DNA of 64,000 nt from positions 806,001 through 870,000 of the forward strand of contig JBAIAA010000414.1 in NCBI GenBank assembly GCA_037893245.1, read 5' to 3'. The notes under the pieces are model-generated. The model had not been told where the DNA came from. It did not search any database and saw only the letters and a program-made list of their open reading frames with translations. The DNA is from Crossaster papposus. Taxonomy: Eukaryota; Echinodermata; Asteroidea; Velatida; Solasteridae. Made by a program: the position numbers and the translations under genes. Of this stretch, positions 31,924-64,000 are shown piece by piece (the stretch's first letter is position 1; the number at the start of each line of letters is the position of its first letter).

Positions 31924-34900
31924 TCAACGGTGCGTTGTGCTAACAAGAACAGGCAGACCATTTACCTCAGAGTGGCATGCATTTACTGGGTGGACTTTTG
32001 GACTGGCCATGATTCTTGGACGCTTGATAGGGAAGGTTCCTTGGGGCCAGTCAGCTAGTCCATGCTTTGGTCTGGGAGTCAAGCTGGAATATTGAGAGAG
32101 GTCTGAAGCCCCTGGCAGATGGGCAGATGCCCACGGTGTGTCTAACATGCTATCAGGTGTAGGGTTAACAGATAGTCCTTCTGTCAAAGAGACTGCTTCT
32201 GGAAACTGGTCTGGCAATTCAGGACAGTACAAACTAGGCTCCTGATTACGTTTGCTCACATTAACTTTTAATCCTCTTGTATTGTCATCAGAACAAGACA
32301 AGAACTCCTGGTGTTTTTGGTGTTTGAAGTCTGCTGAACAACCTGATTTGGAGCTTTGGGTAGATCTTGATGGGGAATTCACCACCAGCTCACACGCACG
32401 TATCAAACTCTCACTTGTTCTGTCCTTGCCTGGGTGTGTTCTTCCCTTTGATGACTTCGGAGGAATTTTAATAGCTCCATCTTGTAATCGGAGGGTGTCT
32501 GCCCGATGCCGAGTAGCTCTTTTAGACAACATCAAGCCTTTTTCTGATCTGGAACACACTGTATTATCCTCCGAGTAAGATTGTGCCCTTCTGAGCTTCC
32601 TAAATTGGACCTCACTTTGAAGATCTTCAGGAATGAGTGAATGGCTCCTGTATTGTCTGCTCAGAGGTTTTTTGCTTCCTCCTTTAGAAATCGAAGCTCT
32701 TGAGCTTAGATCTCTTACGGTTTGTTTAGCATCATGATCGTCCTTAGAAGGTGGCCTGTTCAGATGGTTGCGGTACACAGTTCCTCTGGATGCAGACGAT
32801 GGCAACATCTCTACCACACGTCTACAACTTTCTTGTGGAAACTCAACACTCTCGGGTTTTGGAAGATCAAAGTCATCAAGCAGATGTCCAGGAATAACTG
32901 CGCATCCATAAGGGCTACCATCAGACCGACTTAAAGGTTTCCTCTTCGGTGTGCTGACTTTCAATTTGCCAAGAAGAGCACTTGATACTGGACTTTCAGT
33001 GATTAAGGCACTGACTCTATCAGCCTCACAGGATGACTGTTCTGTGATGCAGGTATCTTTACTTTGACCACCATCACAATCTGATTGATCTTTGACACTG
33101 ATTTTTCTAGAAACCATACGAACAACTGGAGTACAGGGAAAATTGTGTTCATCTCTTGCTGCCCGACCCTTCAGAAGGGAAGTACATGTAGTTGAGTTGA
33201 GGTCATACATTTGTAATGCTGGCTCAAAGCTTGATGATCGGAGTGTGGTTCTTTGAAATGGCGGAGGCTCTCTGAAAGTACACCCATCACGAAATGCTGC
33301 TATACCCTTGATATTATGATCAACTGGGATTGAGTTGATAGGTCTAGGCATGCATACTCCTGTAGGCTTGTTTGACTCGTCCAAGTGGGGAGAGGTCCTT
33401 CGACTGGAGCTCATCTCAGTTTTATACAATGACCCTGAACCAAGCTGGGCAAGAATTGATGGTCTCGATGGAGACAGCAGATCTTCCGTTGGCACAAATG
33501 TTACCACTTGTTTGATTGGCCTTCTTGAATTACCACTGGTACGCTGATCACTAGATGTGGATTTGGACTTTGTATGCGACAAAGGTATTAAAACCTGGCT
33601 TGAGCCAGTTTTGCTTCTCTCTCTGTTACCTGCACGAATACTGTGATCTTCATCTCTAGCGGAATTTGATGGAAGGGATGCTTCATTCAAGATTCGACCT
33701 GAAACAGTTGCAGCTTTAGTAGGGCTTAAAAGCTTAGCCTCTACAGGTTTTGAACGCGAGTATAGTGCTTTGCCTCTAGGTATAGAACTAGATAATTTTT
33801 CAGGCAAGCGACACAAGTCTTTGTTGAGTTTCTTAGTCAGAAGTACAATCCTGATGTCACCCTTTTTTCCAGGACACTTTATGCCTAAGTGGCTTTGGGA
33901 CTCATCTGAATCTGTGTCGGTAAACACCTCAGACAAACTCGGTTTTGACTTCTGTCTTGTGGTCGCTTTAAAGGCTTTCACTGGTGAAAGGGTTTTGCAA
34001 AACTTTGGTGGCCTTCTGGTTTTTTCCAAGCTGGCTGTGTCATTATCAAGGAAGGTGTTCATGACACCCTTCTCTACACCTTGTGGTCGGTAGATGAGCG
34101 ACTCACTGGACCTGTCAACATACTCTCTTCGCATCTGAGGCCACCTCTCATTAGATTTGTCCATTGAAGGAGGAGTTTCATACACCATGCTATCTTTGCA
34201 AGAATCTAACTTATTTGCAAGGACACTTTTTTGGACACCTTCAACTGGTTCTGACAGTTGGACTGTATTCTCTTCAGACACATCTTTGTCGGTATTACCT
34301 GCAACCATCAGGAGCTTACTTGGTACATAAATAGGCAAATCTACCATTTTCTTGATTTTCTTCTCTACCGGTATATCATTATTTTCAGTCTCCTCTCGGC
34401 TTCCATTTTGAGACTCAGAAAAAGTACCTCTTTTGTCAATATGATCATCCAATGTTTGAGGTCTTGTTTCAGAAGAAACGTTATCCTTCTGTTGTTCTAG
34501 CTCTGTAATAATATCACAACTGGACCTTTTCTCTTTGTCTATCTCAGAAGCTTCTGGCAAGTACTCTTTCTTGACATCTTTCAACTCAGTAATCGCGATG
34601 CTAATGCCAACTTGATCAGTCACGTTATATCCTGAATGTTGTGGAATAAAAGCTAGGGTTTCAAACAACTGATTGTTATCGTCATGGGTGTTAATTTGAG
34701 TTCCAACCACAGCTCCCTCAGCTGGTTCAGCTGGTTTAAGGAAAGCGGCTGGAATAAAGACCCCTGATGCATGTACATCTTGTTCAGGTTCTTGTAAGTC
34801 ATTTAGCTTCAGTGCTGCCCTAGAATCCACCGAATCTGGCTGCCTGGTAGGTTCCGAATAACCTTGACTGACGCGAGCTTCCAAACTCTTACCCTCAATT

Positions 34901-37900
34901 GTATCTGTCATCAATTCTCTGTCAACTCCTTTTAACCCTATTTTCACACCTGTAAAGATACTATCTTTAGACTTAGATCCTGAATGTACAGAAGAACAAA
35001 GAGCATTGTGGTTTTTTTTAAGGTTCTTTTGGTCAGTACTATTGATAACATGCACTACAGAATCCTTGGAAAAAGTAAGACTATCGGGAAAGGCAGACTT
35101 TATTAGAGGAGTGAAATGCATTTGTGAGTAGTAAACATGGTAATTTGAGTCAGAGTATGTGTAAGAAGCTGCATTGGTATTCTGCGTGGAATAATAGTCT
35201 TGCCTACCTTCACTGTCCAAGCCTGGTACTGGCGGCTGCTGTCTCATTTGCTGATTAGGTCTTGGCCCCATATTGCAAGGAACCGGTCCTGTGTTGTAAG
35301 TTTCAGGAGCCATGAAGTTTGGTCCAGGTCCCATGTTGAATCCAGGTCCCATGTTGAATCCAGGTCCCATGTTGAATCCAGGTCCCATGTTGAATCCAGG
35401 TCTCATGCTGTTCGAACCAGGGGCCATGTTGTTTGAACCACATATTATGTTATTTGGCCCTGCACTGCAAGGTCCTGCGCCAAAGTAGTTAGCCCCAGGG
35501 CCCATGTTGGTAGGTGCGGGCATCGTATTGGTATGTCCCATCCCCATGGTGTTGGGTCCAGGTGCCACGGTATTGGGTCCGGGCCCCACGGTGTTAGGTC
35601 CGGGTCCCATGGTGTTGGGTCCGGGTCCCATGGCGTTGGGTCCGGGTCCCATGGCGTTGGGTCCGGGTCCCATGTGGTTGGGTCCAGGTGCCACGTTGTT
35701 GGGTCCCTGTACCATGACGTTATGTCCGGGTCCAACGACGTTGGGTCCCAGTGCCATTGGATTTGGGCCCAGTGCCATTGGATTTGGGCCCGGTGCCATA
35801 GCATTGGGTCCCGGTGCCATGGCGTTGGGTCCCGGTGCCATGGCGTTGGGTCCAGGTGCCATGGCGTTGTGTCCAGGTGCCATGGCGTTGGGTCCAGGTG
35901 CCATAGCGTTGGGTCCAGGTGCCATAGCGTTGTGTCCAGGTGCCATAGCGTTGGGTCCAGGTGCCATAGCGTTGGGTCCAGGTGCCATAGCGTTGGGTCC
36001 AGGTGCCATAGCGTTGGGTCCAGGTGCCATAGCGTTGGGTCCAGGTGCCATAGCGTTGGGTCCAGGTGCCATAGCGTTAGGTCCAAGTGCCATAGTGTTA
36101 GGTCCAGGTGCCATAGTGTTAGGTCCAGGTGCCATAGTGTTAGGTCCAGGTGCCATAGTGTTGGGTCCAGGTGCCATAGCGTAGTGTCCAGGTCCCACAG
36201 TGTTAGGTCCGGGTCGAGGTCCAGGTCCCATAGTTTTAGATCCGGGTCCATGTCTCAAAGTGTTATGTCCAGGTCCCAGAATGTTAGGTCCAGATGCCAT
36301 AGTGTTAGGTCCAGGCCCCATAGTATTTGGTCCATTTTTCATGCAGTAGGCTACAGGTCCCGAGTTGTTTGGTCCAGGTCTGGAGTTGGTCTGTGAAAGT
36401 CCCATGTTGTTGGTCCCAGGTCCCATATTTGAAGGACCAGGACCCATGTTGACACTAACAACAGGTGCTACATTGTTGGGCCAAGGTCCTGAGCTTGAAC
36501 ATATAGGTCCCATATTGTTTGGTCCTTGTGCAGATGCATTATCGTATCCATACACAGCATATGATTGTTGAACACAATTAGAATTCTGTTGGGAACTCAC
36601 TGGAACCTGTTGCAGCGTGTAGCCTGGGTTATTTTGCTGCTGCATATTTGGGTTGCTTGTATGCTGCTGATAGTATCCCGGATAGGCTACACCATTTAAT
36701 TGGTACTGTGCAGTTTCTTGGAACCCCTGAGATTGCTGTGTTTGAGTATTCATTATGTTCATGCTGTGTGGCATGTGGCCATGTTGGTTGTATGGATGTT
36801 GAAACTGAGCAGGCTGAGAAGCGAATCCTTGCTTCAACTGACTCGTTGGCCAGTTAGTACTGCCAGGTGCGGTCGTGGAGCTTGAGAGATTGTTGGAAGG
36901 ACCCTTAGATACAGATGCATGACTTGTAGTACGATTTAGAAGGGTGGGGATCGTTCCAGTTCCACGGGTCTTTACTTCTGTAGATGCTTTGTCATCACCT
37001 AGCAGCTTCGCGCACATTTCTTCCACAGCCTGTTCTTCAGAACTGCTGAGTTTATGTTCCTTGCTTTCACCTGTCTCAACATCTATGGCACCTTCCCTTG
37101 CCATCATGTCTCTTTCAGCAAAATCTGAAGCCGTGTCACAATCTGTTTGTGTCCAAGAATTTTCAGCAGAGGCTTCTTCTAGAGAAGCCTTAGGATTTTC
37201 TATTTTTATCCATGTAGCTTTCATAGTCTTACACTGCTTGGTGGGTCGTTTACCCCAAAGTTTCATTTTGAACTTGCCCCATTTACAGCTGTCTGGGGTG
37301 GTCTGTGGCGAAGAACTGGAACTTTTTATCTCGGGTGATAACAGAGATTTTGCCGTTTCCTTCACCTTTTTCCTTTTGGGAATGTACTGGACCTTTTGCT
37401 CTTTTTCAACCACTTTTGTATCAGGTTCTGTCTTCAAAGGTAAAGGTGAAGGTAAAGGTGAAGGTAAAGGCGAAGGTGATCTCTTCTGCACAAGTTCTGA
37501 AATCCCAACATCTTTCTTCTTAGATGACATCTCAGATAAGCTATTGTTCTGGTTGTGGTTTGTTTCAGGCTCACGAGCAGTTTGCTTTTCACATGTTCTA
37601 TCAAAAGCAGCAAATTCATCAGGTGTTCCAGAGTCGGGGTCTTTATAGTTGTCCTTCACCTGCGCACGAGCAGCTGTTAACATCTGCTGGATTCTGTTCA
37701 GAAAATCAGTGTTTGAGGAGAAGGCAAAACTTGCAGACTCTGCTTCGGCTTCTATCTGCTTCGGTCCGGAATGTTGAACTGCATTGAGACAGACATCCTC
37801 GACTCGTCTTTGAAAGTCCTCTTGAAGTCCTGAAATAATGTCATCCACAAGATTTGATTTATTGGAAGGCTTTTTTGGTGATTTCCTATTTACCTCAGAG

Positions 37901-39353
37901 GTCGTTCCGGTAAGCCTTGCTAACTTTGGAAGGTGCCTTGATACACAGGATGACACTTTGACTTGTTCTTCATATGGCAGTCTATGTGAACTCAAGCAGG
38001 CAGAAAGCTTTGATGTAATATCCGACAGAATATCACTGGTCGTTTGAGTAGTCAGGTCATTCCCGTTAAGATCTCCATTCTGCATTCGTTTTCTTCTGCG
38101 TTTACGAGGATCTGTTGGTAATGCTTCATCTATATGTAGGGGATCTGGCAAGCTGAGTTTACGTAGCTCAGACCAAAATGCATCTAGTTCATATGTGATG
38201 GATTGGATTCGCCGATAAACTGAAGTTGGAGACAGCTTGTTAAGATGTTCCTTGTCATGTATCTGCTCCGATGTGGTGTCCTCCAATGCATCTGCCGCGA
38301 TATTGAAAATGGAATCCTCTAGCTCAAGTTGTGCAATGGTTATTGAGGTGTCAAGGCTCATCTCTGGGGGCTTTGCCACTTTGGCATTAGCTTCATCATC
38401 CGTGAGTTGTCTATCACTTAACACACCATCTTCTGTCAGACCACTGGGTACCATTTCTCCGGTGTTATTTATTGGAACAGTGATAACAAGGTTGGTTTGG
38501 GAAGCAAGAAAACTTGATGTCTTTGATGGAAAAGTGCTGGACAGAGACATGTTCTGTGGATTTTCAACCGAAGCTTTCTGATCAACAACCTTCGTATCTT
38601 TTTCGGTACTGATTTGCACTTCTAAAGCAGGCTTCTCTGAAAGTACAGCATTATCAACTGGCGTTTTATCCATTTCTTGCCCACATCTGACATTCCAATT
38701 TCTATTATCAAAGTCAACTTTGTTACAAACTGGCTTATTGTCCTTACCTTGTTTCTCAAGCACAAGACTTCTGTCCGAGTCTTCAGTGACAGTAATTTTG
38801 ATATTTTTATGAGAGGGCAGGAGTGCGACTTGCTTAGAGTGGGCATTGGCTTCTGCTTCTGGCGTCACTAAGCTCTTGTGTTGGCCTTCCTGACGACACT
38901 CCTTGACTTCATCAGAAGCCATCTTGTCTTTGGGTTCAGCTTTCCCTTTATACTGCGACAGACTGATTTTTATCTTCTTAGATGCATCTGATGAAGCGTC
39001 CGGGACCTGCTCGCAAGTGGGACTGCTAGATCTGGTCTCTTTATCAACAGTTGTCGGAGATGGAGGTCTTTGGCCACTACATTTCAGAATCGACTTGGCT
39101 GGTCTGTTGCTTAAGTTTGGAGGTTTTATGGACGGAACAGGTGCACTAGAGCTTTTCGTTGTTACAACTGGTACCATGTCTTTGGATTCCTTCTGTGGCA
39201 ACGGTGTTGTTTTGGCGGCAGAAGAGATAATTGTAGTCACCAGAGACATTTTGGTAGGCTCTGTTTGGGCTGTCGCTATTGGTTGTTGGTTGTGTAGCCT
39301 TCTGATTCTTGGATCACGGGCAGCATTTATGGAGTAGGACAACAGACAGGATT
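31924..39353 (-). CDS. TASOR: TASOR-like terminal exon, 7,430 nt
   Basis: One uninterrupted frame of 2,476 codons after the acceptor CCCCTGTGTAG. It opens [21 protein letters not shown] helical segment follows ([20 protein letters not shown], then [18 protein letters not shown]). Next comes a basic block ([20 protein letters not shown]), the Gly-Pro-Asn-Met heptad array (about 36530-35250), and a long Ser-rich disordered tail to STTHR. Low-complexity content is high, but codon use stays coding-like throughout. A 7.4 kb internal-repeat exon is unusual for this family. Confidence 0.88.
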
Positions 39354-42300
39354 CTACACAGGGGTCAAAACAGAGACTTTAATTAATTCTTGTTCAACTG
39401 TGATGCCAATTCCCAGATAGAAAAAGTTTGGTAAAGATATTCTAATTGGGCTAGGCTGTTGAGACTGTTGAATACACCTTCACTTTTCAGTGCACATTGA
39501 ATTTAACAGTACAAAAACATAACCTCGTTACATTTTGTAAAAAAGTGTAAAAAAGAAAGTATTCCAAGATTAAACTACACATCCATTGATTTTACTTCAC
39601 TCATTATTTGACATTTAGAGCAAAATTGCTTAAGAAATGTTAAGAATTTATAAACCCAAAATCTGATGACATTGAAACTGGGTGGGTTCTTTGGGTATTC
39701 TCTCAGGATTTTTTTTAAATTTCTTCAACTGACATACCTTTCTTAGAGGGAACTGGCGGACTCTGGACTGGAGAAAAATGCTGGCTGGTGATTGGTACGA
39801 GATTTACTGGTAGGCCCGTCCTGTTGTCCATGGTTGTCTTGGTGTTGTCTGGCGTTGGTGGTTGTAATGGTTGGGGGCTGTGATTCTGATGGGATGCTGA
39901 TGGGATTTGTTGTGACTGGTTACCCCTGATAATGGAAAGTACAAATAAGTTATGCACACAAGTTTCAGCCGGTAACAAATTGTAATAAATTTGATTTTGC
40001 AGGAAACAAATAGTCAACAAAATTATACTTTTAGAAATATAAATATAATAAATAAATAAAATTTGAAAAAGTTTCGTCACTGAAACCAAGAAACATTTAT
40101 AGGTAAGATTGTTAACCTTATAAACGGTGCAAGACCCGAGGCTCTGCATGAAGACGACACATTTTACAACTGCAAAGTTTGTAGAAACAGGATTTGAATA
40201 AATGTTTCTGTGATTCTGAAAAGAACTAGGGGTGCTAAGAAGCATCCTTGACGTTCTAAATAATGTTCTCCATTTTTTTTCTTCGGTCATGACATAACAC
40301 ATGCTGGCAATCAGCAAGGGCTGACACGTAGAAACTACACACTTGTGATGAGAGTAAAATCCTACTGAATCGGACACTCACCCCCCTTCTGTAAACTGGT
40401 TCTTTGGACTACCACCTCCAACCTCTACCAGCCTGCTGCTTGTACTGGTGCTGGAACTGCTGTTGCATGTACTGTTGTTGCTGCTGTTGCTGTTGTTGTA
40501 GGAGCATCTGCTGTTGCTGCCGCTGCTGCCATAACTGCTGTTGGTTTGACTGTTGCTGAAACTGCTGAACGAACAACTGTTGGCACTGCTGGATGACCTG
40601 TTTTTGCTGTTGTTGCCGTTGTTGCTGCTGTTGCTGCTGTTGCTGCTGTTGCTGCTGCTGCAGTTGCCGCTGCTGCTGTAGGTGCTGCTGTTGCCGCCGC
40701 TGGCTTTGTCTGTCATAGCAACTTCTGCCCTTATGCCCGTTTCGATTTGGCACATTCGCGTTGCTGGAGGTGTTGTTATGGATGATGGTTGGGATACCGA
40801 TACCTTTTCTTGGGCTGTGCAAAAAAAAGTTTTTTTGTGTAAATGTTTGGTCAACAACATTTTATACAATTTTTTTTTAGACAACTAAGTACCAGTAGCA
40901 TTTGTTTTCTCTTTTAAAAAGTTAGACTGAAACAATTTTGGGTTGATCTCTAAAATTAATGTCAGAAATTGAATGTTTCTTTAACCCTAACTATCCCAAA
41001 CCCATCAAACTCCAACTGCAGGTTTTGCTTGATTTTGGCAGGTTTGGTACCAAACATTAGCAACTTGTTGTTGCACTAATGCACTTAGTTTGACTTAGTA
41101 CAAAAGACTTGGGGAGATCCTGTTGAATTATGCTTAAGGTTCAGGGCAGAAAGGCACAAACTTGTCAAAAATGTTGGAGCTTGGGGGATTGCACAGGCAT
41201 TTATGCGTGTGTAAACACCGTTGATCGTGGCATGGGACAAAGGAATTTTTGGGGAAACAATGCTGTCCACGATTGACACAAGGTCCACGATCTCGACTCG
41301 TGCGCAAATTCTATGGAGATCATCCGAAAATGTTAAAGTATAAACAAAAGAGGGATTACGGTCGGACAATGCCTAGTCCACGATCGAAGGTCTTTACACA
41401 CTTTTTATGAGTTTGTTTTTGATTGAAATAGGGGACGTAGGACAAAGGGAACAATGGGGTCCCCTATTCCGCAAAGGTCCCCGATTCAGACTCGTGTGCA
41501 AATCCTATGGCGATCATCCGAAAACGTTAGAGTACAAACAAAAGAGGAAAGACGGTCGGACAATGCCCCGTCCCCTATTGACGGCATTTACCCACTTGCG
41601 TTTGTTTTTGATTGAAATAGGGGACGTATGACAAAGGGAACAATGGGGTCCCCTATTCCGCAAAGGTCCCCGATTCAGACTCGTGTGCAAATCCTATGGC
41701 GATCATCCGAAAACGTTAGAGTACAAACAAAAGAGGGAAGACGGTCGGACAATGCCCCGTCCCCTATTGACGGCATTTACCCACTTGTGTGTATGTGTAG
41801 AAGTGTGCGTGTGTACACCCCGTGTGTCCCCACTTAAACAGTCCAACACACAGAAACAATGGCCAGTCACCACAGCCCTGATTCTGAACACTAAACAATG
41901 CATAGACCCATCTGTACCAAATCAATAAAACTTCAAGCAGTTGGAGTGTGGCAGGTTTATAGTAACAAGTTTATTTAAAAGTGCATTTCTTTAAACCTTT
42001 AAATAAAAAAATAAAAAAATTGTATAACCGAGAGCGTTGTTTAATAATTTGATGTCATTTCAGGAAGACAATGTTCCATTTTAGGTGTTTTCTGTTCAAC
42101 TTGTGGACCAAAAGGTAGTATACACCATTGGTAATTGCTTGAATTATCATGAATTTGTAGATTTAGGGGGTTGTATTTCATAGTAAATATCGTTTAACTG
42201 ACTTTTCCGAAGTTTTACCATAATGGATGCCGAGAAAAGCACGAAAAACAGCGTTTGTTTTCAACCGGGGTCGAGCCGTTATTCTTATGTTATTTGTGTT

Positions 42301-44893: not shown

Positions 44894-44928
<35 letters not shown>

Positions 44929-53900: not shown

Positions 53901-56900
53901 TCTGTCTGCTGGTCCAGGATGGTTCCAAGCGGTAGCTTGCTGCGGGAGACTTTGGGAGGTTCGCGTTGGATTCCTGTAGTCCAATGACAAAAATAGGAAA
54001 TTGGAGATGTGTAGTAGAGTCAAGTTAACTGCGATGTCTTTAACAGCCATCTAAGATCAACTACTTCATCGTGAGTGTTGAAAATGAAATTGCATGTTGT
54101 TACAGCCCATCAGATTTGGGAGAAGGAATAAACATTATGTCACAACATCATGCTCGGTTGTAAAATAGTTCTACCTTTAATTGAAGCCTTGTTTTGAAGC
54201 CTTGTTTTCTCAAACACAAGACACACAGACATACAAGACTTTTTTCTTACCCGAGTTGGACATTCCTGGACTCCAATTAGGTTCGAGGGGCTGCTTCTTA
54301 GTGAGCCGAGGATCAGATAAGGCTGCTCTTGGACTCTTCTGCTCCCCTTTATTTGGCTCTAGGTGCTGGCTGTACATTGGGTGGACGTTTTCTTCCTGAC
54401 TAGCATCACTGACGTGAGGTGACTGGGCTTGGGCTTGGGGGCTAGGGACAGGATGGGGCTGTTTCTTAGACACACCATCCCTCGGCGTGACTGCTGCTTG
54501 CGGTAAGGTCTCAGATACATAGTACATAGGATGAAGGGAGGCTTCAGGGAATGTATCCGTCCGAATGTTCACGGCTGAAGCGGGACTATTGTACATAGGA
54601 TGGACGTTCAGGACTTCGGTTGGCAAGGGGCTCCTTTCAAGAGCGCCTGGAGGTGTTGGATGGTCCACAGAAAACAAGCCATGCTGGTAGTCGATAACAT
54701 TGCTCTTAGAGCCTACAGTGTTTGTGCGGTCCATGGACATGGGCGTCTGGGGATCTGAGGATCCTTGGCCGTTTGATATAATACTCTGGGTTTCAGCCCG
54801 CCGTTTAAGGTCGTGACTCTGTCTGGTGAACATGGACAGCAGGCCGATGCGAAGCATCAGCTGCTTGTTGTTGCTGCGTTCCAGAAGTTGGTTATCTGGG
54901 ATCGAAGACTCAAGTTGAGTGCCGGAGGGCACATGGACACCTTTCTCTGCAAAACAGGCACAAAGTAATGGACATCATAAAAGAGGAAGTGGTGTGTATT
55001 ATGTTTATAATAATGACAAACTTCCTATCTTTGCCATCCCCATCTTAAGAATATACTGTCTGAAATGTTGAGTATCACCTGTTTTTTTTCTTCTCAGAAC
55101 CTCAAACTCACAAAAATGCAGATAAAATTGGGGCAAATCACATTTTGTCTGGTTTACTCATCATCCCATCAAGATTATAAAAAGTTAAAACAGGTCACAG
55201 TGGAACCAGTTTTGAGAGAGCAACGGTCCAAAATATGGTTTTATATGTTTTCATAAAATTTGCTTTAAAAAAGGTTTTTTTTGGGGGGGAAAAGAAAGAC
55301 ACAAATATCGGCTGTGACCACCAAGAGGTCCTAAGGTATACTACAACAACAAATAATATCCAGACTTTCCATGACTGGTGGGAACCCCTTTTTTGCATTG
55401 TGACGGAAAACTGGGTAAAAATTTACGCCTTAACAATGCAAACAAAACTTCCTAAATAATCAAGAAAGTCCAGCAGTCACTTTTGGTAATGTTTGTACTC
55501 GTAGAAAACTTACTCTGGAGAAATAAAACGTTGTAAACCAATGTCAGTCTGCGTGAATTTCGTCTCTTTTTTTTTCATGTGATCAGCGCAACTTGGCAGC
55601 CAGACCGTACAGTGCGACTGTTTTGACCGCACAGGTTCCATATTCTTCACGATATATCTATTACCTTTTCCAAGTTTTCTTTAAAACGACTTTTAAACAA
55701 AAATTGGAAGGCCCACTTTTACTCATACCTGATGACATAAACCATGGAGGGAGGAAGAAATAGCCATGCATGATGCACGCACCTGCCACCGATGTTATTT
55801 ATTTCATTCGCAAATGGTTTCGCTATTGCTTGGAGACTGGACTTATTACCGATGCTGTAACACGGTATCAAACAAGTGGAGCCAGACTACTTTGTTTTCT
55901 CAGTGCCACCTCGTCCCTGTTTGTTGCTCGCTTTACCACTGCAAGTGCAATGCAATCATTTCGGGTATGAGGTTGCTACACGGCATAGTTCTATTTGTAG
56001 AGTAACGATAGTTGAGTAAGATTGCAGTTTTATTTTTTTTCAACTTGACAAAACTGCATGTCAAAGAGCGAGGATATTGGAAAAAAACAAAAAACGCGAA
56101 ATCACGCAAAAAAGGGGGTAGTTGGAAAACTAAAAACGAGGAAAAAACCTGGAAATGCGGAAATTTCACATGCCTGAAAAATGTCCAAATGAATCCAATT
56201 CATTACCTGTGATGTGGCCAATCATGGGACTGTGGGAAGTAAAGAGTACGTGTAGCGTCTCAGGGTAGTCGCCTCGCGTCACACCAAGTTCATGGGACAG
56301 CGAGGAGGTTGGGAAGACAAACATCGTCACGTTGCCTTCAAGACGGCATTTTAGAACCTGTGATTAATTAATAAACCTGACATTAATTAACCAGTTCGCG
56401 CCGGATGACGAATATAAACGCACAATTTTTCCCAGATTCAAAATGGATGACGCATAAACACGCTACGAGCAAAGCCGGGAATTTCTTTCAGCAGTAAGCA
56501 AGGCCGGAAATGCGTGGGTGTGCTTCCCGGTACTATTAGCCTGAACACGCCTCGGATCGAGTTTCGTTGAAAATAATCCCGCCTGTCGGCTCGGTGATGT
56601 TAAAATAATCCCAGCGCGAACTGGTTAAGCAAAGATGGCTTCTTTGGTCTCCTTGGTCTGGAGAATTACAAGTTTAAATGTGCCATGCATTTTGAGCAAG
56701 TCAATGTACCAGATGTTATTCAAATTTAACTCGCAAATGGCTTATTATATTAAATAATGACTGTCAAGGTCTAATACGCACCAAGTGATTGAGCGTCAGA
56801 AACTGCAGCAGATGTGTGTATCGTTTTGTAGATTCCTTGTTATGTTGAAGCTCGCAGTAAACCACATATTTGTTCCTTCGGCATACTGTCAAAATAATAG

Positions 56901-59900
56901 ATTATATAGCAAACACTTTCATCAATTACAACTAACCTGCGACATTTAATATGCAACCAATTCTAGACGGAAATAATCATTTTGTTTGAGAACTGGATCG
57001 GGAGGGGCTATGGAGCTGTACTATGTACCAAATGAAAGCTTATATCCTGAATTTTCCAACTATGTACCGGTACATAACTCTATTTTGTGGGTGATATATC
57101 ACCTTTTCCTAGAGGGGTCATATGAATGAAGTGCCCTTTGAATACATGTTCTACTCTATTTTTATGTTAACTAGTTCACGCAGGAGGATGTATACACATG
57201 CAAAATTCAAAACGGATGACGCATAAACATGCCACGAGCAAGGCCAATAATGTCTGTTAGCCGGAAATGCGTGGGTGTGCTTCCCGGTACAATCGGCCTA
57301 AACCCGCTTCGGATCGAGTTTCGTTAAAAATAATCCCGTGCCTCGGCTCGGTGAATGTTACAATAATCCTGGCGCGATGCTGGTTAAGTGCCTTTTGGAT
57401 GAAGGTTCTAATCTATTTTCCATTGTTGCAACTAACCTCAGTCTCCCCTACAGTAAAACAAAACCAAGAGAAAGCACACATTACATACCTTCCCTAATAC
57501 CGGAGGTGAGCGGTATTCCACTTGCAAAAATGCCCGAGGGGAAGTGGGTATGCATCTTAGCAAAAGAGATCTTCGTCTTGAAGTTGATGACTGCCGGTCT
57601 GAAAGGTCAAATGGGAGAAGACGAAGTCAGAAATTTGTGATTTTTATCACCGATTAAAGGTCAATAAAAAGACAGTTTGGTTTTCCAACTGCACATGTGA
57701 ACACCAAGATTCAACAATTTTTCTCTTGGAATAAGCGCAGCAGAAACATGCACACAAGGCTACGGGGACACCGCATCTGCATTCTGTGCCATTTTTGTGC
57801 AATCGAAAAACCATGGAAACTTTTGCATTTGAACACACAAGACACCTAAAAACACTTTGATGTGCAATAAAACATTACTTCAGAACACCACGATCTCTGT
57901 AAATTTGCTGGTAACCCCTATGCTTTCCCCGCACACATGTATGATGAAATTTTTTTCTCAAATGAAAAATTGTCCAATCTTGTTGTGCACATGCGCAGTT
58001 AGAATACCAAACGGGCTTATTGCTATGAGGTTTTTATGAAGAGTTTAGGTGTAAAAAGCCGCTAAACTAGGCACTGAGATCTTTCCAGAGTTGCAATCAA
58101 GTCAGTCAGAAGGCACAACAAGTCACAAGTCAATCACAAGTCATTCGGTCTTTAGTCAACTCACAAGCAACTAAAATAAACTTTGACAAAAGCATTCCTT
58201 TTTTATTGTTTTTCGTGAATTGTTTTTCGTGAACCGACTCGCGGACCGACTCGCGAACCGACTCGCGAACCGACTCGCGAACCGACTCGCGAACCGACTC
58301 GCGAACCGACTCGCGAACCGACTCGCGAACCGACTCGCGAACCGACTCGCGAACCGACTCGCGAACCAACTCGCGAACCGACTCGCGAACCGACTCGCGA
58401 ACCGACTCGCGAACCGACTCGCGAACCGACTCGCGAACCGACTCGCGAACCGACTCGCGAACCGACTCGCGAACCGACTCGCGAACCGACTCGCGAACCG
58501 ACTCGATATTATTTTTCTTAGAAGTGGCGTTTAGCGGCTTTTGCGACTGAACTCTTCAAATAAACCTCATTAGATGATGACTCACAGATTGTGGGGAAGG
58601 ACGGGGGACGTGTAGGAGACCATTCTAGCCAAGCAGAGAGGCTCCGTCTTAGCAGTAAGAGATCCTTCCCAGACGATGTAGTGACTCTCCCTCAGGGCGT
58701 CAATTTGAGTAACTATGGACAGGGGAACAAGTAAAAAATAAACAATATACATGTACCAGGGTAAAGAACCGAATCTAAAAAGGTCAACAATTAAAGTGAT
58801 CTTTGAATTTTTAACGACAACCTTAAATGACCCTAGATGACCCTAGATGACCTTTGACTTATTTCAAATAAATTGTGATGTAGTTTGTCCTTGAGATTTT
58901 TAAGTTGATGGGTTTTGCTACACTGAGCAGGCTTGGCATTTTGACAACTGTTTGATGTTACCCTGCTCCGTTTGTTTTATGCTATATATGTTGATTTTAT
59001 TATAATATTTATTCATCTATTTATTGATTATGTATGCAATAATTAGGCATCTACGACATACAGCTAGTATATCATTAGCATGAAATATAATATACATAAA
59101 TGTATACATGTATGTCTGGCAAAGTGTATTCATTACATATTTCATGATTGCTCCTCCATATTTGCTGCTTATTTTATAATTGACTGCCTAGCCTGACGCT
59201 GGATTTCAAGGACGATTACGACTGAACACCATGAGGTTGAGCCCCTAAATTCAGGTTTATAAGGATTCACCATTTCATAACTTTAACAGAGCTTTTTAAC
59301 ACGTTGACTGCCTACTACGAGTATAGTCGTAGTAACAGGTGTACCGGATTCTGCCACTACGCGTATACTGGTAGAAAATGAAAGGTTTTTGTATTGTAAA
59401 TTGAATACACTGGCATCACTGATAACGCAACAAATACGTTGTTGGCAGTGGTGAGGACATACATTTTTGTGTTCCAGTTATTTTGTTAAAAGTTTTTTTT
59501 TAAAGTACCTATTAAGTATGGATGCGTACAATGCTTGGAAAAGGGGGACGCCCTGTGAAATGATGCCCGGCAGTCAACATGTTGACCACAATCAGATGCC
59601 GTGTATACACGCAATTTTTTTTTCAGAATTCAAAACGGATGACGGACATGTACACGTCACGAGCTATCCTGGAAATATATGTCAGCGACCGGCTCACAGC
59701 GAGCGATGCCGGAAATATCAGGGTGTGCTATTCACAGATGCCAGCCTGAACCCCTCTCGGATAGAGGTTCGCAAAAAAGAAAAGAAAAGATAACTTAATA
59801 ACCACCGATCTGTATTCTAAACCAACAGACACACACTAGTATCTCTCCTACTCTGGCTGTCACCCTTTGCCTCAGCCAGGAGCAAGTTTGGATGAATCGT

Positions 59901-62900
59901 CTTTGGAATATTCAACTACACGAGCTCAACGTTATACTGCACAAATCACTCAAATGTGGCTGATAACGTGCAGTCCCTCATGCATCACGTACATTTCGTC
60001 TATGACCATTAATGCTTTAACATCTGGTGCCGAATAGGTTTCAGGTGGCGAGGCATTCCACTCAGAAATAGTCCATGAATACAATGCCTTTCTATAGCAG
60101 TCCTTATTAGTTTAGGGGAGTTTGTAGTTCAAGTAATATGTTGAACTTGTAGTCGGTTTACAATGATTTACAAGTAGATGACTCATGTTCTGTGAGGTGA
60201 GACCATCAGTTTCTTTTTGTTTGTGTGTTTCAAGTGCATCGCATTTGAGCTCTCCAATCATGTCTGTGTCACTACTAGTCTTTTTTTTTAGTCATTTCAT
60301 TCCTTGGCCTAATCCTCCTTTTGTTGGTTCTTCCAATCCACTCTTTTATGTTTCTTCTCCCAATCCTGTTATTTACATGCTTGTATGTCCCCCTTTACAT
60401 GTTTTTTGTTCATGTACACGGCCATTTTATCTCCGAAGAAGATCTTAAGATCAAAATATAAGGCCCTCTTAACTGTATTAATTTGTATATTTCAGATATA
60501 TTCATATTTCCGGTATATTCCGGCCAGTAAGCAGTTTGCAGCAGTTTTAATATTATTCAATTTCAATTATGGTCATAAAGTACAATAAGAAAAATACATA
60601 CATGTACAAAATTAATTTAAATTTGGCTGGACAGGATCCAGACATATGGAATGTTTGACTTATGATTGTATTGTGAATCCAATCGATGATTAACTTGTGT
60701 TTTTATTTGAGATAGACCTGGGTTAGTCCATAAATAAGGGGTCCAAAAGCGGGACATTTGTTTGTGTCCCGGTAACACCTGACCTACCGGCAGTAATTTC
60801 CCATGCAAGTGTCACTGAAATTGACTTCAAACTCGTTTGTATTTGTTTTGCATGTACTTTGCTTCGTGTAATCACTCTTGGAGATAGAAGGCATCAAAGA
60901 CTGTGTGCTGAATTTAAATAAACATCTATGTCAGATGTAACAGGGACATGAACAATTGGACCCCACATTTATGGACTGACCCACTTGTAATTTACATGTT
61001 ATCGCCTTGTGATAATTTTTGACTTAGGAACACGATTGACCGAGTGATACGTTTTGACTGACGACATGCATATCTCAACTTGGCCACTAACGTTTAATTT
61101 TGTCTTTACTCACGTGGTATCACCGACAGCGGCGTGTTTATGTTGTCCGATGAGTCTTGGTCCTTCAGCAGTGCGTCAGGCTTGGCATGGGTGGGGACAG
61201 GCAGTGAGATGGGGGGCATGCTGGGTTGGTGGAGGTATTGGTGATGGACAGAGGGTGAACCTTGAACCGATGAATCCCTGTGAATCCCGATGAGGTGAAA
61301 TAAGTTGGTATACATGCAACAGTGTCAGGAAAAAAGATGCAAAGCAGAACAGATCAATAGGCTATTTAAAGCACAGGTGCACCATGACTAAAGGCTGATA
61401 GGGGTATGCATTTTACAGGTAGTTTGAGAATCAGGTATCCGATCACAAAAACTGCCGGTACCCAGGTACATGTTCCAGTTCAAGCTTAACCAACTCCCAA
61501 CATTTTAATCTTGGGAGTTCCCTTTCAGCTTGTTCATAAAGGTTCGCACTATAATACTGAAACATCAGAGAGTTAATACAGCAAGATTGAAGAGTTTAGA
61601 GTGAGCTTTGCTTTAAGCCTCCCTTGCAGAAGTCACTAATTAGGTCAGTTGTTCAGCAGCACAAAAAATGCACAGACTGTGTGTTTTTGTGCATAACGTT
61701 TGTACACTGAAGCTGTGTTCACAATTGTGTTCCTCATAGGAACACATGCAAAAGGCTGGACTCGGGACATTTGTGCATATTTGTTTTGTCAAACCTTAGG
61801 AGGGTTAAGGTGTAAACTGCAAATTCCCGAGCGACATCAATTTGAAATTTTTTTTTTTTCTATGTAGTCTACTTTGATTTTGAAAATTTCCAACAAATGA
61901 CATTCCAAACCTTTCGCTTTCATCATCTGAAAAGTTACTAATGTATTTTGTAAAGATGGCTACGAGCACTCAATTCCATAATCTGGAATCGGTTCCTGAC
62001 ATCAACAACCGATGCACAGCCCTAATCGCTGATAGCCATAATCGCGATCGCCATCCGGCGATCGAGATTTTTTGTTTGTAAAATTCAATTTTTCATAACA
62101 ATTATAGGATATCTACCGCAATCAATTTGCCGGATGCCTACAATCAATTTACTTTTAAATGAGTAAGATATTTTTTATTCGGTAGTAAAAGTTTTCGATA
62201 TCTGCAAATGGTGTATCCTACCTTTAATGTTGACCCCAACCAAAACTGACTTGAACAAGAGTTGAAAGTGACACATGCTACGAACGTCGGAATAACCTCG
62301 GAATAGCAAGTGTACAAATGTAACATGGTTTGAGGGTGGATAGTCCATATCAACTCGCCAAGGTATTGGAAGTTGACAAGCTAGACCCCGAGGTGAAGCT
62401 GGGTGAACTACAGCATGTACATAAAACAAAATGGTGCAAGTTGAACTTTTTTTTTAAACCTCTTAATAATTACCTGAACCTATTCAATCTCAAGATCAAT
62501 TGAGCTATTTATTACATCATACATTTTCACACCTTTTTGATCTTCTTGGAAGTCCAATCATACAGGTGTTTTGTCTTCGGATTAGACTTACATTCCTGTA
62601 ATAATACTGGAAAGTATAAATTATCTAGACTGACCAAACCAAATCAGATGATATAAGAATCATCTGAAAGTCAAATTAGTCTTTCCGAGTGTGTGGCTTT
62701 TTGAAAGCAATTTTCGTAACTTTATGATTTCAAAAATGCATTGCACTTGCACCATTTATTTAGGAACACGCTGTAGTTTGCCAAATTCCAGTGAAATTAT
62801 ATTTTTAGTTAAAGAAAAGAACCGCTTCTACTTTATTGTATAAGTTTGTTCCAATCAACTGACCGTGTTTCTTGCTGAGGCACTGACTGCATTGGTGGGT

Positions 62901-64000
62901 TGGCTGCAGGGGCGGGAACTGGGCTAGGCTTGACCGGTTCTTGGTAGTTGAAATTGACCACTGCGTAAGGACAGATCTGACGAGGCCGTTTGCTCATCTC
63001 TAAGTCGCCAAACTCAAACAGATAAATCTAGTCGAGGAAAAACCAAACAAATTAATTAAAGTTAATGAATATATCTATCTTTGATAAATACCTTGGAGAG
63101 TTGATAGCGTCTGATAGCAACTCGATAACGTTGGCGGGCGTTATTTGTAGTAACGGACCAGCTTTCAAGAAGAAGCAAATAAATGGCCCTTGAACCAGCA
63201 TTGATTATAAGCATTATGTACGCCATTGATTGGCCAAATATAACAGTCCTGCAGCAACTAGCAACAATACAGCAATCCATGTACATGTACGTACGTGAAT
63301 AAAGGATGCTTCAAATCTTTGGCTTGGTCCATTAATTAAACCTAACCCTGCTAAATGCAACATAATGCACCAATGGTAAACAGGCGTTTCAAGTTGTTGC
63401 ATTTAGCAGGCAACGCATTTCTCCTGGTATTATGTGATTTGTTGCACCTAGCAGGCTTGTTAGTCGGTATACAGCATAACCAGACAAAATGCAACAGAAT
63501 AAACTGTTGCATCGTGTTGCAAATAGCAGGGTTCTATTTCAGGTGTGTTGCATTATGTTGCATGTGGCAGAGTGCTCATCAGAATACCCTGTTGGGGTTG
63601 GGGGGGGGGGGGGGGGTAGGGTAAACAGCATCTCCCAACCTAATCAGTTATCACTCAGTGAAGACCGGGTCCCCACACTGTTAGTCTCTAAATAATTACA
63701 CGAATCTATGTCTGTGTCTGTCGGGCTGTCTATGTGTATGTCCATATTTTGATTATCTCCAGAACTGGGCACTCTATAAAGTTGTAAATCGGCAGGTGTA
63801 TCGCTCATCAATGCCCAAGAATGTACAGTGCCAAGTTGTTTGGATGAGCGGTTCTCGAAAAAGCAGCAAAACCAGAGGCTTAGACTCGCACTGCTGCACA
63901 AAATGTAAAGTAGCGTCATATAAATTTTCGATATAAATTTTAGAATTTCTGTTTCGTGGCTTGATGGATATGTTTGTTTACCTGCGTAGCATCAAATGCA
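31924..64000 (-). CDS. TASOR: Giant TASOR/TASOR2-family (FAM208) gene, 3' part, 18 coding exons in window
   Basis: Eighteen exons join in one frame from the window edge to TGA at 31926-31924, about 13,069 coding nt. They are, in order: 64000-63982, 63027-62864, 61277-61114, 58712-58586, 57598-57489, 56885-56782, 56357-56207, 54946-54251, 53973-53657, 53366-52322, 52191-51714, 51318-51207, 50991-50457, 47100-46232, 45705-45579 (weakest), 40814-40382, 39925-39738 and 39353-31924. The start block [13 protein letters not shown] and the following VWEGSL match my memory of TASOR (pseudo-PARP end, then the downstream domain). TASOR is the scaffold of the nuclear HUSH complex, which recruits H3K9 methylation to transposons. 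The product is far longer than vertebrate TASOR or TASOR2. The 5' end is outside the window. The symbol is by family; TASOR versus TASOR2 is unresolved. Confidence 0.72.
35250..36530 (-). repeat. Coding heptapeptide array, G-P-G-P-N-x-M, 21-bp unit
   Basis: Read on the minus strand, about 35-40 units of [14 protein letters not shown] or GPGPNTM run in blocks, with the Thr form clustered at the N-terminal end and the Ala form in the middle. Near 35330-35400 a 6-residue variant, GPGFNM, repeats four times (18-bp unit). The 21-bp unit has no stop in several frames of either strand, so the long opposite-strand frames here are artefacts. Confidence 0.92.
39738..39925 (-). CDS. TASOR: TASOR-like exon, Pro/Gln-rich
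   Basis: It encodes [20 protein letters not shown], then [20 protein letters not shown]. Acceptor CATTATCAG, donor AAAG|GTATGT, exit phase 1 into the last exon. Confidence 0.78.
40382..40814 (-). CDS. TASOR: TASOR-like exon open in two frames (Gln-rich or Ser/Asn-rich)
   Basis: The CAG/CAA-rich exon is open in two frames. One gives a Gln-rich tract with scattered hydrophobics ([23 protein letters not shown]); it meets a stop at 40409-40411 and would need a weak donor (TGGAG|GTGGTA). The other gives a Ser/Asn-rich tract and reaches the strong donor GGGGG|GTGAGT in the phase that suits the next exon. Mixed CAA/CAG usage argues for the Gln frame, splice strength for the Ser/Asn frame. I cannot decide. 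Confidence 0.65.
40981..41035 (-). mobile_element. Partial miniature TTAA-CCCTAAC element
   Basis: TTTAACCCTAACTATCCCAA is followed by 'acccatcaaactcc'. A related piece, 'ttaaccttaactttcccaaa' plus 'tccatcaaagtcc', lies at 21619-21650. Only one end is clear. Confidence 0.4.
41205..41788. repeat. Tandem repeat, 189-bp unit, two near-identical copies plus one older copy
   Basis: 41411-41599 and 41600-41788 differ at only a few bases. 41205-41410 is a more diverged relative ('tctcgactcgtgcgcaaatt', 'ggtcggacaatgcc'). The period is divisible by three, which makes a spurious repeated frame on the plus strand. It lies in the intron 5' of the two-frame exon. Confidence 0.9.
42111..42443. mobile_element. 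AAGGTAGTATACACC-family miniature element, copy 3
   Basis: Ends are AAAGGTAGTATACACCATTG and AAATGGTGTATACTACCTTT. The core matches copy 2 with about 50 bp deleted. Confidence 0.82.
43316..43568 (-). mobile_element. TTAA-CCAGTTCGCGCC miniature element, copy 7
   Basis: It starts TTAACCAGTTTGCGCTGGGA and ends CCGGCGCAAACTGGTTTAA. 253 bp, reverse orientation. Confidence 0.8.
44894..45007. repeat. Two poly-C tracts
   Basis: C tracts at 44894-44928 and about 44986-45006, with CCCCA repeats between. The coding (minus) strand of the TASOR-like gene is therefore G-rich here, which may favour G-quadruplexes in the pre-mRNA. Confidence 0.85.
45055..45365. repeat. Inverted-repeat-rich stretch with CAACAGG words
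   Basis: GGCTTGCCTGCTAAATTCAA near 45146 and CCTGTTGGATTCAGCAGGTT near 45345 are diverged inverted partners, and several TCCAACAG/CTGTTGGA words alternate between them. This is probably a degenerate foldback element. Confidence 0.5.
45579..45705 (-). CDS. TASOR: Inferred TASOR-like exon, least certain
   Basis: The acceptor GGGTCCAG sits behind an unusually long pyrimidine tract (the minus strand of a GGGCGAA-type repeat, 45716-45800). It enters in phase 0 as [20 protein letters not shown] and ends TTGT|GTAACC in phase 1. It supplies exactly the phase needed to join 46232 to 40814 in the Ser/Asn frame. Without it the neighbouring exons do not join in frame. No homology was recognised. Confidence 0.4.
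45716..45800. repeat. GGGCGAA/GAGCGAA short tandem repeat
   Basis: Seven-base units (AGGGCGA, AGAGCGA) repeat about ten times. On the minus strand they form a pure-pyrimidine-rich run just before the acceptor of the inferred exon at 45705, so the satellite may serve as a polypyrimidine tract. Confidence 0.85.
46232..47100 (-). CDS. TASOR: TASOR-like exon: disordered, basic C-terminal half
   Basis: 290 residues. A conserved-looking block, [20 protein letters not shown], is followed by [20 protein letters not shown] and a charged helix ([20 protein letters not shown]). It ends YYEDQ at CAG|GTGAGA, phase 0. Confidence 0.82.
47268..47530 (+). repeat. tRNA-derived SINE
   Basis: AAGTTGGCGTAGCGGTT has an A-box-like TGGCGTAGCGG. 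It is followed 30-35 bp later by an AACCCGGGTTTAAATC B-box-like word. A unique-looking body follows (GTGCCCTAACTGGCGCC, TAACCCAGATTGACAGGGGT). No intact tRNA fold is expected. Confidence 0.55.
47531..49660. other. Intron of the TASOR-like gene
   Basis: It contains a segment near 47736-47960 related to 26690-26790 ('agggaagcacaatagga' against 'agggaaacacaataggg'), the ATATGTGACC element (48771-49219) and otherwise unremarkable sequence. Confidence 0.5.
48771..49219. mobile_element. ATATGTGACC-family element with long inverted ends, copy 3
   Basis: The left end is ATATGTGACCCGCTCCATCG, and the right end is its exact reverse. The inverted repeat continues to about 38 bp (ending AATAAGTCG). It is 449 bp, non-coding, and the best preserved copy. 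Confidence 0.88.
49661..49902 (+). mobile_element. TTAA-CCAGTTCGCGCC miniature element, copy 8
   Basis: It starts ATAACCAGTTCGCGCCGG and ends CGTCGCGAACTGGTCAA. Both TTAA sites are mutated, so this is an older copy. Confidence 0.8.
50457..50991 (-). CDS. TASOR: TASOR-like exon: acidic, with a D-K-T tripeptide repeat
   Basis: An acidic, disordered region ([20 protein letters not shown]). At about 50569-50614 a 9-bp unit (GACAAGACA) repeats five to six times and encodes Asp-Lys-Thr repeats, a slippage-prone coding microsatellite. Donor ACAG|GTGAGA. Confidence 0.82.
51207..51318 (-). CDS. TASOR: TASOR-like exon: helical
   Basis: It encodes [20 protein letters not shown] then [17 protein letters not shown], a strongly helical, Ala-rich stretch. 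Entry phase 2, exit phase 0. Confidence 0.8.
51714..52191 (-). CDS. TASOR: TASOR-like exon: globular segment
   Basis: The second half looks folded: [51 protein letters not shown]. The G-x-D-G-x-G-R-T stretch is loop-like; I do not call it a nucleotide-binding site. Confidence 0.78.
52322..53366 (-). CDS. TASOR: TASOR-like exon: charged region with terminal helix
   Basis: 348 residues. An N-terminal helical segment ([30 protein letters not shown]) is followed by Ser-rich disorder, then a highly charged helix near the end ([20 protein letters not shown]). Acceptor CCGTAAAG, donor GTGGTG|GTATGT. Confidence 0.8.
53657..53973 (-). CDS. TASOR: TASOR-like exon: coiled coil
   Basis: It encodes [20 protein letters not shown] through [20 protein letters not shown] to [10 protein letters not shown]. 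Heptad hydrophobics over about 70 residues predict a coiled coil, a likely oligomerisation or partner-binding segment. Confidence 0.82.
54251..54946 (-). CDS. TASOR: TASOR-like exon with a repeated H-P-M-Y motif
   Basis: A 232-residue piece, mostly disordered. HPMY occurs three times in similar settings ([31 protein letters not shown]), about 30-60 residues apart, which suggests a short linear binding motif. It ends with SDPRLTKK, which recalls RDPRIRR at the start of the last exon. Confidence 0.8.
56207..56357 (-). CDS. TASOR: TASOR-like exon (end of the SPOC-like region)
   Basis: It encodes [20 protein letters not shown] then [20 protein letters not shown]. It looks like the last strands of a compact domain. 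A TTAA miniature element (56387-56628) sits 30 bp upstream of the acceptor without disturbing it. Confidence 0.8.
56387..56628 (+). mobile_element. TTAA-CCAGTTCGCGCC miniature element, copy 9
   Basis: It starts TTAACCAGTTCGCGCCGG and ends CAGCGCGAACTGGTTAA. 242 bp. It lies 30 bp from the 56357 exon border. Confidence 0.87.
56782..56885 (-). CDS. TASOR: TASOR-like exon (SPOC-like region)
   Basis: It encodes [20 protein letters not shown] then [14 protein letters not shown]. The alternating beta-strand and helix pattern suits the SPOC-like domain described for TASOR. Entry phase 1, exit phase 0. Confidence 0.8.
56983..57128 (-). mobile_element. ATATGTGACC-family element fragment
   Basis: 'ggggctatggagct' and 'aaatgaaagcttat', then 'ataactctattttgtgg' and 'agaggggtcatatg', follow the order of the right half of 25198-25632. 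The left end is missing. Confidence 0.6.
57167..57387 (+). mobile_element. TTAA-CCAGTTCGCGCC miniature element, copy 10
   Basis: It starts TTAACTAGTTCACGCAGG and ends CTGGCGCGATGCTGGTTAA. 221 bp, diverged ends, orientation as copies 1 and 2. Confidence 0.8.
57489..57598 (-). CDS. TASOR: TASOR-like exon
   Basis: It encodes [20 protein letters not shown] followed by [17 protein letters not shown]. Strong acceptor (GACCTTTCAG) and donor (GAAG|GTATGT). Confidence 0.8.
58231..58505. repeat. Minisatellite, 12-bp unit, about 23 copies
   Basis: The unit CCGACTCGCGAA repeats almost without error, with one CCAACTCGCGAA variant near 58367. Each unit holds the palindrome TCGCGA. It is CpG-rich in an AT-rich intron of the TASOR-like gene. 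The unit is divisible by three, so both strands show spurious repeated frames. Confidence 0.95.
58586..58712 (-). CDS. TASOR: TASOR-like exon: start of the domain after the linker
   Basis: It encodes [20 protein letters not shown] and then [13 protein letters not shown]. The Y-x-x-W-x-G-x-L pattern resembles the Y-x-P-W-K-G-x-L strand that opens the corresponding TASOR domain. Exit phase 2. Confidence 0.8.
59297..59588. mobile_element. Inverted-end element, TTAACACGTTGACTGCC
   Basis: The left end TTAACACGTTGACTGCC is matched by GGCAGTCAACATGTTGA at the right. Near the left end an almost perfect palindrome, CTACTACGAGTATAGTCGTA, occurs. A third TTAA-associated family is possible. Confidence 0.55.
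59590..59780 (+). mobile_element. TTAA-CCAGTTCGCGCC element core, degenerate copy 11
   Basis: The core is recognisable ('ttcaaaacggatgacg', 'cacgtcacgagc', 'gccggaaat', 'cagcctgaaccc', 'ctcggat'), but both inverted ends are lost. It may have been joined to, or disrupted by, the neighbouring element at 59297-59588. Confidence 0.6.
60385..60570. repeat. Dispersed repeat with AAGATCTTAAGATC hairpin, copy 2
   Basis: It carries 'ctccgaagaagatcttaaga' and 'ggccctcttaact', then 'ggccagtaagcagtttgcag'. The same blocks occur near 20640-20880, and 'ggccctcttaacttattt' alone occurs at about 19212. Confidence 0.55.
61114..61277 (-). CDS. TASOR: TASOR-like exon: disordered linker
   Basis: A Ser/Pro/His-rich linker ([19 protein letters not shown] and on to PLSVIP). 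Acceptor ATTCACAG, donor CCAC|GTGAGT. Phases fit on both sides. Confidence 0.75.
61395..62025. repeat. Dispersed repeat, copy 2 (pair with 6645-7030)
   Basis: See the partner for shared phrases. This longer copy ends CAACCGATGCACAGCCCTAA, a typical hAT-like terminus. Confidence 0.5.
62040..62227. mobile_element. AAGGTAGTATACACC-family miniature element, right half
   Basis: 'ggatatctaccgcaatcaat', 'gccggatgcctacaatcaat' and the end GATATCTGCAAATGGTGTAT with CCTACCTTTAA match the right half of copies 2 and 3. The left half is replaced. Confidence 0.7.
62864..63027 (-). CDS. TASOR: TASOR-like exon: end of the pseudo-PARP (DUF3715) region
   Basis: It encodes [20 protein letters not shown], then YAVVNFNYQ, then a Pro/Val-rich linker. 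This is the strongest identity evidence in the gene. Acceptor CTCGACTAG, donor ACACG|GTCAGT, exit phase 2. Confidence 0.85.
63345..63570. repeat. Interspersed GTTGCATTTAGCAGG motif, five copies
   Basis: The motif occurs near 63346 (reversed), 63398, 63442, 63518 and 63557, with two variable middle bases (TT, CC, AA, TG). Spacing is irregular (39-76 bp) and the sequence between is not repeated. It lies in an intron of the TASOR-like gene. Confidence 0.65.
63598..63617. repeat. Poly-G tract
   Basis: GGGGTTGGGG followed by 17 G, in the intron just downstream of the exon at the window edge. Confidence 0.9.
63982..64000 (-). CDS. TASOR: TASOR-like exon (partial at window edge)
   Basis: It encodes AFDATQ and ends CAG|GTAAAC in phase 0. 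It continues directly into [10 protein letters not shown] of the next exon. A-F-x-x-T-Q before an aromatic-rich strand is the pattern I recall from TASOR. Confidence 0.75.

Follow-up and report, generated by a model that had tools for sequence, protein, structure and literature searches.

The minus strand of the 64,000-nucleotide window analysed here (contig JBAIAA010000414.1, positions 806,001 to 870,000) probably carries, to judge from its sequence, the greater part of a single gene encoding a TASOR-like protein, which would act as scaffold in a Human Silencing Hub (HUSH)-type silencing complex. Running from 63027 down to 31924, the rebuilt gene has 17 exons and 12,993 nucleotides, which encode 4,330 residues and one terminal stop, and its N-terminus lies outside the window (Table 1). 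An initial annotation of this DNA had proposed 18 exons and about 4,355 residues, also with the N-terminus outside; our counts come near to these figures without reproducing them exactly. Inclusion of an optional, phase-keeping exon of 63 nucleotides at 62533-62595 raises the exon count to 18 and the calculated length to 4,351 residues. The gene ends within an open frame that runs from stop to stop over 2,484 codons (31924-39378). Apparently this is a TASOR-like gene that is ordinary in kind, oversized, and with one unproven join.

The exon model combines a simple exon-chain search with reading of the sequence, using GT/AG ends from 63027 downwards. By itself the search gave only the exons from 54946 on, and the six upstream exons were set by eye with phase among the criteria. 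In the 16-exon chain that omits exon 14, phases agree at 14 of the 15 junctions; the matching phase claimed in the initial annotation thus stands for those 14 and fails at one, from 46232 to 40814. Phase agreement was itself used to choose exons, and therefore the 14 agreements are not independent proof. Coding potential was scored with a three-periodic model, leaving one segment out at a time, over 16 segments (exons 1-13, exon 16 and the two non-repeat parts of exon 17, with exons 14 and 15 left out). Of these 16 segments, 14 score highest in the chosen frame, and the exceptions, exons 4 and 8, are near ties (Table 1). Two further candidate exons were set aside. A poor exon at 42366-42438 (-23.8), taken from the first exon-chain run, was dropped because by eye it resembles the stretch at 62147-62380, and a candidate at 45587-45705, although two of its frames score well (12.3 and 11.5 bits), showed no good donor in the needed phase.

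The family assignment starts from exon 1. When its 54-residue translation was searched with phmmer against the PDB, the single match at expectation values (E) up to 10 was 6TL1_A, Protein TASOR, at E = 3e-7. Residues 2-32 of exon 1 align without gaps to residues 183-213 of this 214-residue chain, the C-terminal end of the pseudo-PARP domain, with 15 of 31 positions identical, including those of the motif RPR-x-x-CPYAVV. By the construct limits given in PMC7532188 (110-332, lacking 261-269), the matched residues are 301-331 in human numbering. According to the same source, the loop Tyr303-His316 of TASOR has 14 residues, compared with 5 in all annotated human PARPs, and within the human PARP family is called unique to TASOR; deletion of residues 307-312 or the substitution Y305A abolishes silencing. 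This 14-residue loop, required for HUSH silencing, is kept ungapped in the window protein. Exon 1 therefore appears to encode the C-terminal part of a TASOR-type pseudo-PARP, including the loop. The DUF3715 model in Pfam gave no match to exon 1; that model is reported not to span the whole domain.

Downstream, exons 3-6 would encode a SPOC-like domain. Joined and searched against the PDB, they match the SPOC domain of FPA (5KXF) at E = 0.008 in two collinear pieces, the only other match being to a TetR protein at 0.27. In Pfam, the family SPOC_AIPP2 matches over part of exons 5-6 at E = 0.0016 (0.0047 in a longer query), and SPOC is the top match in both libraries. None of eight controls (seven shuffles and one reversal of the SPOC region) matched a SPOC family, and one shuffle matched another family at E = 0.072. 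Taken together, these scores and the position of the region point, weakly but consistently, to a SPOC-like domain after the pseudo-PARP. A SPOC domain placed after a pseudo-PARP matches the order in the published definition of TASOR-like proteins, DUF3715-SPOC-DomI (PMC10578480). The match of exon 1 to human TASOR and the SPOC-like exons that follow it agree with the TASOR-family call of the initial annotation, and both motifs on which that call was based could be placed: the 13-residue motif falls at the pseudo-PARP end and YIVWEGSL at the start of the SPOC-like domain.

Several observations weigh against this assignment. Most of the pseudo-PARP lies upstream of 64000, beyond the window, and loop position 305, where human TASOR has the Tyr whose replacement by Ala destroys function, is Phe here. 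The SPOC exons 3, 4 and 5 have coding scores of about zero (Table 1) and rest on phase, splice sites and homology, not on coding score. Singly, the two FPA SPOC pieces are non-significant (independent E-values of 12 and 27), and the SPOC_AIPP2 match, at 19.1 bits, falls below the curated cut-off of 28.1. DomI of human TASOR, the MPP8-binding domain, is described as four helices placed after SPOC with a 16-residue linker; no 110-residue aromatic helical domain was seen directly after SPOC in exon 7 (about 70 residues, by eye; a DomI profile was not used). Exon 17 gave no match to DomII or PIN in Pfam or the PDB, with the PDB searches omitting 35305-36699 and with sequence search able to miss these domains. 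Likewise, there was no PDB match to the Periphilin-binding helices (human 1014-1095) for exons 1-13 at E up to 5 or for two parts at E up to 10, the presence of that chain in the library being unconfirmed. In these two respects human TASOR may differ from the window protein in the parts searched. The searches took in exon 8 against the PDB only, and exon 14 and the serine/asparagine (S/N)-rich frame of exon 15 in neither library. In PMC10578480 the modern architecture, which includes DomII and PIN, is attributed to vertebrates; a loss of both domains would agree with this, although sequence search cannot prove absence. Other matches to the gene were weak (Pfam E of 0.024 or worse and below cut-offs, PDB E of 0.27 or worse) and were taken as chance.

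Published sizes are 1,670 residues for TASOR, 2,430 for TASOR2 and 2,789 for TEX15, with 3,059 for mouse TEX15. At 4,330 residues the partial protein is 2.6 times the size of TASOR, 1.8 times that of TASOR2, 1.6 times that of human TEX15 and 1.4 times that of mouse TEX15. Hence the claim in the initial annotation of a protein over twice as large as its vertebrate relatives is true of TASOR and too strong for TASOR2 and TEX15. With human TASOR (FAM208A; 6TL1) the window protein shares the pseudo-PARP end, the 14-residue beta8-beta9 loop and a SPOC-like domain next, whereas, if it is the product of one gene, it is at least 2.6 times longer and has a heptad array, a 7.4-kb exon and an exon rich in glutamine (Q) or S/N. 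Schopp et al. (2023, PMC10578480) report that the core of invertebrate TASOR-like proteins likewise starts with DUF3715 and then SPOC. Schizosaccharomyces pombe Chp1, of the RNA-induced transcriptional silencing (RITS) complex, is similar as a SPOC-bearing scaffold in RNA-guided heterochromatin formation (PMC7532188), but no Chp1 sequence match was seen. The TASOR family and its invertebrate members are already known from the work of Schopp et al.; any novelty would lie in the length and the repeats. Among the best-ranked open-licence papers, we found no description of a TASOR-like protein this long or of HUSH acting on a TASOR gene.

Membership of another branch of the family has to be weighed against these comparisons. 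TEX15 too is a long protein in human and mouse and has the DUF3715 domain in common, and a TEX15-type or other DUF3715 protein could account for a large product at this locus. However, TEX15 is published as DUF3715 and TEX15 domains with no SPOC named (PMC10578480), whereas here a SPOC-like domain follows instead. The order seen in the window supports an arrangement that is TASOR's and not TEX15's, and we consider a TEX15-type protein very improbable. Pfam contains a TEX15 model, and no TEX15 family appeared in the Pfam scans (these left out exons 8 and 14 and the S/N-rich frame of exon 15). The gene might also be a vertebrate or lineage-specific TASOR2-like paralogue and not a single pre-duplication TASOR. 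TASOR2 is the longer paralogue; nothing was found that separates TASOR from TASOR2, and the evidence therefore points neither way. Overall we judge such a paralogue unlikely.

The junction from 46232 to 40814 raises a different question, namely whether two neighbouring genes have been joined. An ordinary-size TASOR-like gene, with about 1,633 residues encoded in the window and its N-terminus outside, would then read through the 46232 donor, end at 46202-46204 and be followed by a separate gene of about 2,670 residues with exons from 40814 to 31924. We think this unlikely, though it deserves real weight. The sole out-of-phase junction sits exactly between the two halves: exon 13 ends in phase 0, but exon 15 has to be entered in phase 1 for its S/N frame and in phase 2 for its Q frame. 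As this junction is upstream of the 7.4-kb exon, that exon may belong to another gene. The 70-nucleotide stretch chosen as exon 14 supplies a phase-1 entry for the S/N frame, with a donor of 8.7 bits and an acceptor of 0.9 bits, but 6 of 26 control stretches of equal length hold an exon as good or better (best 43.4 bits), which counts against a single gene. These controls overlap, come from both strands of 4000-28000, are not independent and may contain real exons. The linking exon is not above chance. Without splicing, the frame of exon 13 stops after nine more codons, and an AATAAA lies at 45829, 373 bases past this stop. Moreover, ATG codons inside exon 15 (S/N frame) allow an internal start, and no folded domain was recognised in the searched parts of the downstream half. 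Against a gene end at this point, the donor at 46232 ties for the top donor score in the model, doubtful exon 14 aside, and the downstream half opens with an exon whose acceptor has a long T tract, as for an internal exon.

If a single TASOR-like gene spans both halves, its extra length looks mostly low-complexity, consisting of the Q- or S/N-rich exon of uncertain frame and a 21-bp repeat of about 32 copies. The flanks of exon 15 favour the S/N-rich frame (11.6 and 9.2 bits; poly-Q 6.9 and -3.3), which also has the sole strong donor (6.1 bits). In the poly-Q frame the donors reach 0.3 bits or less, and third positions are the most variable (entropies of 0.98, 1.11 and 1.49), as expected for a translated Q tract. 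Within the heptad array of exon 17, 31 in-register units show 18, 20 and 45 differences from consensus at the first, second and third codon positions (45 of 83 third-position), and 30 of 66 changed codons are synonymous, compared with 16 of 63 possible single changes. This third-position excess suggests that exon 17 is translated. The copies share ancestry, and the excess is to be taken as support with no probability attached; moreover, a 21-bp period holds a frame open in all copies or none, so that openness by itself means little. Two Pfam families matched in exon 17, YadA_head (51.5 bits, cut-off 25) and an ice-binding family (21.2 bits, below cut-off), lie within the array and were judged repeat artefacts. 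An uncalibrated charge/hydropathy index over 100-residue blocks exceeds 0.1 only at residues 101-300 (SPOC), 601-700, 1001-1100 and 2901-3100, and the last of these falls within the heptad array, where the index is uninformative. An AlphaFold2 prediction for exon 10 from its single sequence was equally uninformative (mean predicted local distance difference test score, pLDDT, 42.5).

In human TASOR the pseudo-PARP is reported to be required for deposition of trimethylated histone H3 lysine 9 (H3K9) and dispensable for assembly, SPOC and DomI bind MPP8, and the linker binds Periphilin. By analogy with the human protein, the pseudo-PARP here would be a weak RNA binder needed for H3K9 methylation, SPOC with its neighbouring region would dock an MPP8-like chromatin reader, and the long linker may dock a Periphilin-like RNA binder. 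These parts might jointly direct H3K9 methylation to transcribed transposons. The C-terminal extension, from the Q- or S/N-rich exon through the heptad array and the 7.4-kb exon, could form a flexible, possibly multivalent tail on this core and would add no new enzymatic module.

Two more speculative proposals concern this tail and the exon that encodes most of it. Periphilin has a disordered N-terminal domain for which low-complexity regions from certain other proteins can reportedly substitute, so that an associative tail borne by the scaffold is conceivable. In human HUSH the self-associating low-complexity module is located on Periphilin; here the TASOR scaffold might carry such a module itself, as the Q- or S/N-rich exon plus about 32 heptad repeats, and a single giant protein would then unite scaffold and associative tail. 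The human complex is described as silencing long, intron-poor transcribed elements; its repression correlates with length and sense-strand A content (a length rule of about 1.5 kb and an A-rich sense strand), and HUSH accumulates at long exons (PMC10915761). Self-regulation of the gene is conceivable on these grounds, and the gene might be throttled by its own complex through the 7.4-kb A-skewed exon, which is longer than the rule requires. We regard these two proposals together as improbable. On the sense strand this exon has 31.9% A and 22.3% T; A-skew is common in coding DNA. HUSH has been called vertebrate-specific (PMC10915761), and TASOR-like proteins are reported throughout metazoa (PMC10578480). 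If the host is an invertebrate, a TASOR-like gene that keeps the silencing-critical loop would be one more argument for an older origin of HUSH-like machinery. In addition, a scaffold bearing so long a low-complexity tail would offer a natural test of whether this kind of sequence can move between HUSH subunits.

Table 1. Exons of the TASOR-like gene model and the tandem array in its last exon (window positions; scores in bits are coding scores unless a splice site or total is named).
Feature	Position	Strand	Content	Support and remarks
Exon 1	62864..63027	-	C-terminal 31 residues of TASOR-type pseudo-PARP (DUF3715) with 14-residue beta8-beta9 loop (putative), then linker	6TL1_A, E = 3e-7
Exon 2	61114..61277	-	linker, phase 2 to 1	splice sites and phase; 16.9
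Exon 3	58586..58712	-	start of SPOC-like domain (YIVWEGSL)	-0.2; weak donor, 0.9
Exon 4	57489..57598	-	SPOC-like domain	0.5; rival frame 0.6
Exon 5	56782..56885	-	SPOC-like domain	part of SPOC_AIPP2 match; 0.1
Exon 6	56207..56357	-	end of SPOC-like domain	part of SPOC_AIPP2 match; 5.5
Exon 7	54251..54946	-	low-complexity with VHPMY and SDPRL motifs; phases 1 to 1	65.7
Exon 8	53657..53973	-	coiled-coil-like (by eye)	open frame and phase; 46.7; rival frame 48.0
Exon 9	52322..53366	-	linker; charged helical-looking segments at end (by eye, candidate partner-binding region)	129.3; weak acceptor, -0.1
Exon 10	51714..52191	-	possibly ordered segment	36.0
Exon 11	51207..51318	-		open frame and phase; 14.0
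Exon 12	50457..50991	-	acidic region (by eye)	91.0
Exon 13	46232..47100	-	last exon of in-phase N-terminal half	122.0; donor 7.2
Exon 14 (doubtful)	45061..45130	-	70-nucleotide linking exon, restores phase 0 to 1	total 15.9
Exon 15	40382..40814	-	CAG/CAA-rich; frame uncertain	either S/N-rich (strong donor) or poly-Q (weak donor, slightly earlier end)
Exon 16	39738..39925	-	Q/P (proline)-rich linker, phase 2 to 1	
Exon 17	31924..39353	-	last exon, 7.4 kb, with 2,475 complete codons and then the stop	two non-repeat parts, 233.7 and 186.6
21-bp tandem array in exon 17	35544..36214	-	heptapeptide PGPN(A/T)MA	about 32 copies (Tandem Repeats Finder, 32.0)

Repeats are found within and around the gene model. 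An interspersed repeat of about 230 bp is present at 31001-31230, about 5519-5728, 7466-7695, 10248-10321, 12351-12497, 24461-24622, 43318-43531, 49671-49900, 56397-56626 and 57203-57385, as full and partial copies that are about 80-98% alike and lie on both strands; four of these places are intronic in the TASOR-like model. A 12-bp tandem array at 58227-58505 (98% matches, about 23 copies) lies in the intron that separates SPOC exon 3 from exon 4. Neither Rfam nor tRNA scans returned a match. At 1962-2957 there is a 35-bp minisatellite of about 29 copies (95% matches), in which three plus-strand frames are kept open for 341-409 codons. Close by, at 3005-3992 on the plus strand, are overlapping frames of 204 and 133 codons that by eye look like pieces of mobile-element proteins and lack any Pfam match with E up to 1. 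A minus-strand frame of 188 codons at 28804-29367, located directly downstream of the TASOR-like gene, matches GDSL/SGNH hydrolases (Pfam Lipase_GDSL_2, 34.1 bits with a cut-off of 32.9, E = 4.8e-8) and is possibly part of a mobile element.
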